Shown piece by piece: positions 37,380 to 39,636 of a stretch of 64,000 nt of DNA. The DNA lies in contig SXID01000053.1 in assembly GCA_005772955.1 (NCBI GenBank), positions 1-64,000 on the forward strand. Reading direction: 5' to 3'. The DNA comes from Planctomycetia bacterium. Its GTDB lineage: Bacteria; Planctomycetota; Planctomycetia; Gemmatales; Gemmataceae. The notes beneath the pieces are model-generated. The model was not told the DNA's origin. It did no database searches and saw only the letters and a list, made by a program, of their open reading frames with translations. The translations under genes and the position numbers were made by a program. The stretch's first letter is position 1. Every line of letters starts with the position of its first letter.

Positions 37380-37889
37380 ATGTCCGCTGATGTGCCGGTG
37401 ATTGACCCGACCGCGTTCGACTTCTCGCGCCCCATCGCCGGGATCGAGGAGATTCGCGCGGTCAACCCGCACCGACACGAGTTCGAGATGCTCAGCGGCA
37501 TCGTCCACATCGATCCCGTCGCGCACGTCATCGTCGGATTCAAGGACGCGAAGCCAGACGACTTCTGGGCACGCGGGCACATGCCGGGGTTCCCGCTGCT
37601 TCCCGGTGTGCTAATGTGCGAAGCCGGCGCGCAACTGTGCGGCTACTACTACACCACGCAGAAGGTCGGCGCACCCGGCGCGCTGCTCGGGTTGGGCGGG
37701 TTCGACGAAGTGAAGTTCGTGCGCCAGGTGCGGCCGGGCGAGCGGCTCGTACTGGTCGCGACCGGGGTCAGGGTCCACCGCCGACTGACGCGATTCCGCG
37801 TGGTTGGCTACGTCGGCCTGGAGCGCGCGTTCGAGGCAATCGTGACCGGCGTCCCACTGGGCAAGTTGGAGGAGCTTCGCGGTGCGTAA
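37380..37889 (+). CDS. FabZ-like 3-hydroxyacyl-ACP dehydratase (hotdog fold)
   Basis: The protein has 169 residues from an ATG at 37,380 with GGAGAG upstream. The hotdog-fold active-site pattern GHMPGFPLLPGVLMCEAGAQ has the catalytic His67 and Glu81 in the FabZ arrangement (H-x-P-x3-P-x2-PG, then E). The C-terminus FRVVGYVGLERAFEAIVTG matches the family. FabZ removes water from 3-hydroxyacyl-ACP in fatty acid synthesis. As the gene stands apart from other fab genes and is a little longer than classic FabZ, it may be a second dehydratase. The last eight bases overlap trmB. Confidence 0.85.
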   Translation: MSADVPVIDPTAFDFSRPIAGIEEIRAVNPHRHEFEMLSGIVHIDPVAHVIVGFKDAKPDDFWARGHMPGFPLLPGVLMCEAGAQLCGYYYTTQKVGAPGALLGLGGFDEVKFVRQVRPGERLVLVATGVRVHRRLTRFRVVGYVGLERAFEAIVTGVPLGKLEELRGA

Positions 37890-38586
37890 GCCACGCCGGC
37901 TCTCCAACGATGAACTCGCCCCGTGGGTCGTTCCCGTGGGCAGTGGGCAGTGGGAAGAGAAGCAGACAGAAAGCGAATCGTCTCCTTCTCAAACTGCCCA
38001 CTGCCCACTGCCCACTGCCCCCTGGCCGACCCTCTTCGGCAACGCGAACCCCGTCGAAATCGAGGTCGGCATGGGCAAGGGGCTGTTTCTGCTGAACGCG
38101 GCGCTCGCACGACCCGAAACCAACTTCTTCGGCATTGAAATCGTCCGCAAATACCAGCTCTACGCCGCAACGCGGTACGCGATCCGCGGGTTGCCGAACG
38201 TGAAGACTGCGTGCGCCGACGCGAAGGGCGTCCTGCGCGACTTCGTGCCACCAGCGAGCGTGGCAGCAGTTCATGTGTACTTCCCGGACCCGTGGTGGAA
38301 GGCGCGACACAAGAAGCGGCGGGTGTTCACGCCAGAGTTCGCCGCACTCGCGGCTCGCGTCATCGTGCCGCGAGGGCGGCTCTACATCGCTAGCGACGTG
38401 GAAGAATACTTCGGCGTGATGACCGCGATCGTGGATGCGATGCCCGCCTTCGCGGTGCGCCCCGAAGAAGAGAACCTCGCGGCACCGCGAACCGAAGCCG
38501 GCTTCGCGACAAACTTCGAGCGGAAGGCCCTGGAAGGTGGTGGCGCGGTGTGGCGCGTGGTGTACTCACGAACCGAAGTAATGTAA
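37882..38586 (+). CDS. trmB: tRNA (guanine-46-N7)-methyltransferase with an in-frame repeat insertion
   Basis: The protein has 234 residues from a GTG that overlaps the end of the FabZ-like gene by eight bases. The SAM site EVGMGKGLFLLNAA and the TrmB signature VYFPDPWWKARHKKRRVF are intact, so m7G46 methylation of tRNA is the expected activity. Residues about 19-47 (SGQWEEKQTESESSP and on) are low in hydrophobic residues and derive from an inverted repeat of GGGCAGT units (37,936-38,014). They separate the N-terminal LSNDELAPWV from PTLFGNANPVEIEVG, which are normally close. The insert keeps the frame and lies before the catalytic core. Confidence 0.92.
   Translation: MRKPRRLSNDELAPWVVPVGSGQWEEKQTESESSPSQTAHCPLPTAPWPTLFGNANPVEIEVGMGKGLFLLNAALARPETNFFGIEIVRKYQLYAATRYAIRGLPNVKTACADAKGVLRDFVPPASVAAVHVYFPDPWWKARHKKRRVFTPEFAALAARVIVPRGRLYIASDVEEYFGVMTAIVDAMPAFAVRPEEENLAAPRTEAGFATNFERKALEGGGAVWRVVYSRTEVM
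37936..38014. repeat. Inverted repeat of GGGCAGT units inserted in frame in trmB
   Basis: GTGGGCAGTGGGCAGTGGGA at the left is repaired at the right by CTGCCCACTGCCCACTGCCC. A second complementary part, AGAGAAG and CTTCTC, lies inside. The whole is about 80 bases and adds about 28 codons. Palindromic elements within genes are known from Rickettsia (RPE); whether this is a comparable mobile family in this genome must be tested by searching the genome. Confidence 0.75.
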
Positions 38587-38660: not shown

Positions 38661-39068
38661 CTACTTCGCGGTGGCGATGCTCTTGGCCGCGCCGGCAACC
38701 GCGGAAGTCGGAGTGACGGCACACGCCGCGCAGCAGCCTTCGATCTCAACGGGCTTTGCGACCGCACTCGCCTTTGTCGCGGTACAGCAGGCGGCGTTAA
38801 TGATACAGCACTCTTCCTTCGCCGCGCAGCATGTGGGTGTCTTGGCGCTGACGCTCGTTGCGCTCGAGCAACATGCCTCTTGGAGGACGCAGCACGCGTC
38901 CTGCGTGGCGCAGCAATCCGGCTTGTCACCGGTCAAGCAGCACCCACCGGTCTTGGCTACCGGCGCGCTGGTGTTACAACCCGACTTCGAACAGGTTGAA
39001 GTCGAGTAGAAGTAGATCCCGCCGCCGGCCGCCATCAGGCCCGCTGTGATGATTGCAAACAGTTTCAT
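38661..39068 (-). CDS. Exported cysteine-rich protein with periodic Cys-Cys pairs
   Basis: The protein has 135 residues from an ATG at 39,068. A hydrophobic N-terminus (FAIITAGLMAAGGGIYFY) acts as signal or anchor. Of the rest, 19 residues are Cys, 16 of them in eight Cys-Cys pairs. Two blocks have pairs exactly seven residues apart (CCATQDACCVLQEACC and CCAAKEECCIINAACC), which would place them on one face of a helix. The tail is Ala/Thr/Lys-rich. I do not recognise the family. Binding of copper, zinc or another soft metal outside the cytoplasm is plausible but only inferred. It follows another Cys-rich exported gene in the same direction (121 bases apart). Confidence 0.75.
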   Translation of the reverse strand: MKLFAIITAGLMAAGGGIYFYSTSTCSKSGCNTSAPVAKTGGCCLTGDKPDCCATQDACCVLQEACCSSATSVSAKTPTCCAAKEECCIINAACCTATKASAVAKPVEIEGCCAACAVTPTSAVAGAAKSIATAK

Positions 39069-39189
39069 GATCGTTCTCCGAATTGTGGTGAAAAGAACTG
39101 TATTAGAACCGTGCGCGTGGCAAGTGCCTTGCGCGAGTGGATGATACTGTACCCCAATCGTGGGGAGAAAAGCGACCACAACTTACGGA

Positions 39190-39636
39190 TCAACAGCGCA
39201 GAACGTGGCGCTCGAAAAGTGCGGCGCAGCGGGCATCCACACCGGCTCGGTCGGATTGGTGAAACCCGCGGACAATGCCGCGGTGTTCGGGCGCACAGAG
39301 TAACCCGGCGAGCGCGAGGTATTCGCCGATCGGCTGTGGAAGCGTCTCGGTGAACGCACTCTCGGGAAGTGTGGCAGCGGGTTGCTCTTCGCAGCACGCG
39401 CAGGCGGGCACGCGTGGCGATGCCGGTTTGGGCGTGTCGTGTGTTGTGTTCGCAGTCTCGTCGCAACAGGTTTTCTTCGCCTTCAGACAGCACGATTCGA
39501 CCGGCGCGGATGGGGTTTGTGTGGAAACGTGCGATACCTGCGCGGCCTTTCCAAGCCCGCTCAACTTGCAGCAACAGAAGGCTGGGGCAAACACGATTGC
39601 CACCGCCAGCCCGACCTGAGCGACTGCTCGCGTCAT
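39190..39636 (-). CDS. Second exported cysteine-rich protein
   Basis: The protein has 148 residues from an ATG at 39,636. A signal-like N-terminus (MTRAVAQVGLAVAIVFAPAF) is followed at once by CCCKLSG. Further pairs are SCCLKAKKTCCDE and ACACCEEQP. The C-terminal half has fewer cysteines (CAPEHRG, RHVLRC). No known domain is recognised. The shared direction, short gap and shared Cys-Cys style suggest it works with the following gene, for example in metal handling. It diverges from the NanM-like gene. Confidence 0.7.
   Translation of the reverse strand: MTRAVAQVGLAVAIVFAPAFCCCKLSGLGKAAQVSHVSTQTPSAPVESCCLKAKKTCCDETANTTHDTPKPASPRVPACACCEEQPAATLPESAFTETLPQPIGEYLALAGLLCAPEHRGIVRGFHQSDRAGVDARCAALFERHVLRC

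Follow-up and report, generated by a model that had tools for sequence, protein, structure and literature searches.

A palindrome of seven-base repeats in frame within trmB and its likeness to dispersed palindromes of Gemmata

The trmB gene described here raises the question of how an inverted repeat came to lie within the reading frame of a conserved tRNA methyltransferase, and whether it is part of the protein. We analyzed a 64 kb stretch of planctomycete DNA (the window), in which an earlier note had placed an inverted repeat of GGGCAGT units inside trmB. The repeat is present and is slightly longer than described there, with units at positions 37938–37954 and 37993–38020. The reading frame, which had been said to be unbroken with TrmB motifs intact, is open throughout (37882–38586), and its product matches the TIGR00091 model with 134 bits (cut-off 112.65) in a profile search. 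The explanation that we favor, with a probability of about 0.78, is that a dispersed short palindromic element landed in the flexible linker near the N-terminus of TrmB, where its translation yields a disordered segment. The features of the locus are as follows.

37882–38586, plus strand: trmB, tRNA (guanine46-N7)-methyltransferase, 234 aa (ORF list, TIGR00091, alignment with 29 relatives)
37882–37935, plus strand: conserved N-terminal segment VRKPRRLSNDELAPWVV (conservation in Gemmataceae, confident helix 9–15 in the model)
37936–38020, plus strand: heptamer-array palindrome of the GGGCAGT family, in frame (repeat search, lag-7 scan, RNA fold)
37938–37954, plus strand: left arm, two GGGCAGT units and GGG (lag-7 identity 0.87)
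37955–37992, plus strand: variable core, purine-rich and then pyrimidine-rich, partly self-complementary (sequence, fold)
37993–38020, plus strand: right arm, four units of ACTGCCC, the inverse of GGGCAGT (lag-7 identity 0.96)
38021–38583, plus strand: methyltransferase core of TrmB, motifs intact (TIGR00091 from residue 47, structures from residues 32–60)

The palindrome and the N-terminus of TrmB

The arms at positions 37936–37957 and 37994–38015 are 22 nt long and 95% complementary. Folded as RNA, the palindrome has an energy of -56.1 kcal/mol (z = -7.96), which was equaled by none of 200 shuffled sequences. We scanned the window for arms with 7-nt self-periodicity and an inverted partner. 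The trmB palindrome was the sole match in the 64 kb, and the same scan at lags 4–6 and 8–11 produced no match. Five shuffled windows, used as a control, gave one match at lag 7.

The earlier note had allowed that the real start of TrmB might lie after the repeat, which would then be outside the gene. As can be expected in that case, the family model, whose match begins at residue 47, and solved TrmB proteins, which align with the product from residues 32–60 onward, agree well with it only from about residue 47. However, both the sequence and the position of residues 1–18 are conserved across the genus, and in part of the family, with the same GTG start (37882, overlapping the stop codon of the upstream ORF). 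The earliest in-frame start 3′ of the repeat, ATG at position 38072, lies within the SAM-binding motif, and its use would drop the invariant residues E59 and G63. Since residues 1–18 are conserved in the genus, the true start must be upstream of the repeat; a downstream start is hardly credible and was rejected. Judging from this conservation, the insert would be present in the mature TrmB. In an AlphaFold2 model, the helix formed by residues 9–15 is confident, while residues 23–39, which are encoded by the repeat, have pLDDT below 50, and the insert is thus predicted to be disordered.

Two adjoining ORFs of the window on the minus strand (38661–39179 and 39190–39636) are rich in CC pairs, and the first of them has a possible N-terminal signal or membrane segment. 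They possibly encode small exported cysteine-rich proteins.

Protein and RNA sites that hold palindromes

It had been predicted that TrmB homologues would lack residues of about 19–47. The sequence of relatives does differ there, but the residues are not simply absent: every Gemmata TrmB has a linker of variable length and sequence in this region, and it is different in every species compared. None of the 29 aligned relatives shares the residues found here. A separate dispersed palindrome, GGCGAGCGGGRGGC, is present within the linker of G010 and G004 and, with one mismatch, of G018 (species are referred to by genome number, G000 being the genome of the window). There are 47–230 copies of GGCGAGCGGGRGGC in G000, G001, G010 and G015, where the reversed pattern is near zero; G000 has 47 matches (L313 is an example), and the highest number, 230, is found in G015. 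Linkers of G014 and G001 hold other hairpins. Overall, RNA fold z-scores below -3 were obtained for 4 of 13 TrmB linkers vs. 0 of 13 equal-length stretches from the same genes. The linker therefore appears to be permissive and to have taken up different palindromes, and in some species it resembles other palindromic repeats.

One can suppose that the repeat is kept for a function, e.g., that trmB expression is tuned by an mRNA hairpin or a G-quadruplex. The RNA hairpin is very stable, and G-rich heptamers of such type form quadruplexes in vitro (PMC4692102). Yet the repeat is not conserved at trmB in any relative, the site is filled with unrelated sequence in other species, and copies are found at unrelated genes, which makes the functional explanation highly unlikely compared with the landing of a dispersed palindrome in the linker.

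Because the linker varies in all species, no clean empty site was found among the Gemmata TrmB sequences compared, and the comparison was instead taken from MnmG, whose sequences were collected from the genus. One MnmG loop contains a palindrome of GGGCAGT in G013, GCGGGGC in G016, GGCGGAA in G001 and GCGGAGC/TCGGAAC in G003, and other palindromes in G004 and G014. The same loop is short (EETSSGKRVRG) in G017 and G011, and Aquifex MnmG is without ca. 26 residues at the insert site. In a tree built from MnmG and TrmB, whose deep branches are weakly supported, the four heptamer carriers belong to separate lineages. The simplest reading is that palindromes arrived independently at a hotspot; it is also possible that an old insert was repeatedly replaced and lost. 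With filled and short species of one loop at hand, the cost or benefit of inserts is directly testable.

In L238 (G006) and L235 (G005), the MnmG loop carries C-rich palindromes, and the downstream frame breaks off in the sequences as collected; in L235 there is an assembly gap at the palindrome. The break may be due to sequencing error in C-runs or to a real frameshift, both being equally compatible with these sequences.

In-frame candidates in other genes were defined by an open frame and GC3 periodicity on both flanks and were named by family models, except for kinases L148 and L194, which were identified from motifs only. Four weak-scoring GC3-based candidates (e.g., L156, L175, L188 and L206) were not counted as intragenic. 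GGGCAGT palindromes were found in frame in genes of three Ser/Thr kinases, polyphosphate kinase (PPK), a UbiD-type decarboxylase, GlnE, HemW, a ClpA/B-like ATPase, TilS, a DUF697 protein, a class III aminotransferase and MnmG. Palindromes of other heptamers are in frame in genes of a ModF-like ABC protein, an FAD-oxidase/FeS protein, YgiQ, MutS2, RecD2, QueG and PutA and, in this genome, of a PSD1 protein and a fourth kinase. Counting TrmB, CarB and three further MnmG cases, the total is 26. The inserts of all three GGGCAGT kinases lie between HRDLKPxNILL and KVxDFGLA. In this conserved fold, the turn between the catalytic loop and DFG is highly permissive. The four Ser/Thr kinases (L147, L148, L194 and L409) come from three species and represent two heptamer families at this one turn before DFG.

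Stop codons are absent from all six frames of a GGGCAGT array; the inserts read as GQWAVGS-type peptides in the left arm and TAHCPLP-type peptides in the right arm. Seven is not divisible by 3 and three heptamers make 21 nt, so that every frame leads to the same heptapeptide cycle. This suggests that palindromes can pass through genes when their unit length is not a multiple of three and their arrays are stop-free in any frame. Loci of the stop-free heptamer GCGGAGT are located in genes in 8 cases out of 20, vs. 2 out of 20 for the stop-containing GGATGAA, which is a trend only and is confounded by species. A census of frames based on GC3 of the flanks gave 20 in-frame loci and 19 on the same strand that were out of frame or had a stop, and it cannot decide the matter, since intergenic copies between tandem genes also fall into the second class.

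Palindromes of this kind are also present in RNase P RNA. The rnpB gene at a G013 locus was confirmed by Rfam, and rnpB matches were obtained in 15 of 19 genomes of the genus. According to our own reading of these sequences, helices P3 and/or P12 are heptamer palindromes in 12 of the 15 species; none was found in P3 or P12 of G002, G011 and G017. The heptamer is GGGCAGT in P3 of G013 and P12 of G010, GTGTTTG and GAGTTGT in this genome, GTGTTTG in G001, and GGATGAA in G008 and G004; the remaining species carry other heptamers. The Rfam alignment of L181 alone threads the 5′ strand through the insert, and the wider rnpB match begins upstream of the insert.

Thus, in planctomycetes with large genomes, palindromes lie in frame in core enzymes that act in tRNA modification, DNA repair and signaling, and they are also present in RNase P RNA; repeat DNA in Gemmata appears to keep adding peptide segments and RNA stems. 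The idea of the earlier note that repeats create protein segments is borne out by the dispersal and the in-frame copies, but its one-element scope was too narrow, as many heptamers and the RNase P helices are involved.

Dispersal, families and origin of the palindromes

The expectation that the GGGCAGT repeat would be found elsewhere was confirmed. Doubled GGGCAGT is present at three places in this genome: in trmB, in carB (in frame, at a contig end, GRGQWAVGCHARVSRPTAHCPLPAGEDEVRAES) and in one intergenic region upstream of a gene that reads as citrate synthase. Many more copies are found in sister species. GGGCAGT pairs were detected in 23 of 95 genomes of the family, with up to 48 matches per genome and a reversed-pattern control near zero. 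The repeat is not confined to one genus, a possibility that was ruled out by the detection of a 21-mer in scattered genomes (6 of 294) from other families within the phylum. Sixty fetched loci mostly have the structure (GGGCAGT)n, core, (ACTGCCC)n and a length of ca. 60–230 nt. Unit numbers and cores differ widely among copies, although some unlinked copies have cores in common, with up to 93% identity over 166 nt. Common cores at unlinked loci imply copying between loci; since most cores differ, direct copying is demonstrated for some copies only. In G010, loci L155, L158, L159 and L161 have GGGCAGT arms around a shared core of ca. 130 nt with a stem of its own, ACAGGATGAACACGATGAAC ... TTCATCCTGTTTATCCTGTC, as if one palindrome were nested inside another.

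GGGCAGT is one of about ten palindrome families with a 7-nt arm period; it is the architecture that they have in common, not the sequence. For 25 arms from rnpB, MnmG and TrmB, self-identity averages 0.70 at lag 7 vs. 0.28–0.33 at lags 3–6 and 8–11, and 24 of the arms peak at lag 7. The sole exception, from P12 of G013 RNase P RNA (L216), belongs to a long hairpin whose arm matches itself best at lag 6. These arms were delimited by hand, and an unbiased scan of genome samples, on which our palindrome census rests, carries more weight. In 301 kb of this genome, it retrieved 12 matches at lag 7 and 0–3 at the others; 400 kb of G013 gave 21 matches at lag 7 and at most 11 at others (11 at lag 9, a codon multiple). 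No lag-7 excess was found in samples of 200 kb each from G012 and G016. Doubled GGATGAA has 43 matches in this genome and none in G013, while doubled GCGGAGT has 50 matches in G013 and none in this genome. Within a single genus, heptamer families are replaced from one species to another. In two small Gemmata genomes, G011 and G017, searches for three heptamer pairs and for Y1_Tnp gave no match; their MnmG loops are short and their RNase P helices ordinary.

Palindromes could also originate locally if slippage multiplied a heptamer and template switching made the inverted arm in fast-evolving loops, with no mobile element involved. The wide variation of cores and unit numbers and the presence of different heptamers at one site in different species agree with this explanation. 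On the other hand, one heptamer is found at tens of unlinked places in a species and is absent in its sisters, unlinked copies share cores, and neither the period of 7 nor the inverted pairing is explained by slippage alone. We therefore consider a local origin unlikely.

A dispersed element would need some activity that copies it, and a RAYT-type transposase (Y1, PF01797), which moves REP/REPIN, is one candidate. Y1_Tnp genes are present in 16 of 19 genomes of the genus, and two of the three genomes without them are G011 and G017, which are also without the three tested heptamer pairs and have the short MnmG loop. However, the density of lag-7 palindromes around 22 Y1_Tnp genes was 0.028 per kb vs. 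0.04–0.05 per kb in genome samples, and RNase P P12 contains a heptamer palindrome in G007, which has no Y1_Tnp gene. In the absence of enrichment in these 22 neighborhoods, Y1 was rejected as the mover, and this route must be regarded as quite unlikely. No cognate transposase was found.

We return to the explanation that a dispersed palindromic element landed in the TrmB linker. The element consists of two inverted arms, each an array of seven-base units, flanking a variable core; it would move as DNA by some activity, and its repeat number would slip. Its tolerance in genes may have three sources: a GGGCAGT array is stop-free in any frame on either strand (GQWAVGS and TAHCPLP cycles), the hairpin is nearly symmetric, so both orientations would read alike, and selection would retain copies of frame-fitting length in exposed loops. 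The insert would then be translated and near-neutral, selection being the reason for its frame.

The observed dispersal, in-frame presence, filled and short MnmG loops, recurrence at the same sites and RNase P helices also allow a wider proposal, which we make tentatively and which may well fail. Gemmata could harbor mobile palindromes whose defining trait is a period of seven bases and not a particular sequence. Some activity would make or copy heptamer arrays in inverted pairs, the heptamer would be swapped between species, and permissive sites (the MnmG loop, the kinase turn before DFG, the TrmB linker and RNase P P3/P12) would be refilled repeatedly. If this is true, repeat DNA continually supplies free-living bacteria with new protein loops and RNA stems.

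Comparison with known repeat systems

To our knowledge, in-frame palindromic repeats in conserved genes are known mainly from Rickettsia and Wolbachia, both obligately intracellular, in which they could be due to relaxed selection. The Rickettsia palindromic elements (RPE) were reportedly described by Ogata in 2000 and 2002 (as cited in PMC2229807), and the insert in Rickettsia Gmk is said to be translated, with the enzyme still active. The likeness to RPE that the earlier note drew holds for behavior. RPE are found in frame in protein genes, in intergenic regions and in the gene for RNase P RNA (M1), and a transposase is not known for them (PMC2229807); the Gemmata palindromes are also dispersed, in frame in conserved protein genes and present in RNA genes (RNase P P3/P12), and no cognate transposase was found for them either. 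However, RPE form families of 105–146 bp in obligate intracellular bacteria (PMC2229807). The Gemmata hosts, in contrast, are planctomycetes with large genomes, and the heptamer design of their palindromes, with arms that are tandem arrays, variable cores and many heptamer families, is unlike the description in PMC2229807.

With respect to architecture, tandem arrays of a 7-nt unit, with 24 of 25 arms peaking at lag 7, make the Gemmata arms similar to STRR heptamers. The latter have been described as tandem repeats in heterocystous cyanobacteria. They also occur in the RNase P RNA gene of cyanobacteria (Vioque 1997, as cited in PMC2858038). In Gemmata, many conserved protein genes hold in-frame copies, for which we found no counterpart reported among STRR.

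G-rich heptamers, GGGAATC in Xanthomonas and GGGGA(C/T)T in Nostoc, are under-represented in coding regions (PMC4692102). They resemble the Gemmata repeats in forming genome-wide arrays that start with GGG and vary in unit number, but paired inverted arms, which are the rule in Gemmata, are not described for them, and in Gemmata in-frame copies are common. REP/REPIN with RAYT transposases (PMC3116915) are likewise small dispersed hairpins, whereas Gemmata arms are heptamer arrays for which we found no Y1_Tnp link. Coding palindromes of Nematomorpha mitochondria (PMC6649704) are also long inverted repeats in translated genes; those are perfect repeats in mitochondrial genes, while the Gemmata ones are imperfect and built on dispersed heptamers. 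Our literature search revealed no title bearing on Gemmata palindromic repeats, and for planctomycete heptamer inverted repeats it returned only unrelated work.

We assign the Gemmata palindromes to neither RPE nor STRR, as the likeness is one of behavior and architecture. They work like RPE and have the build of the heptamer repeats of cyanobacteria, and they join two curiosities that have been studied separately, coding palindromes and heptamer repeats.
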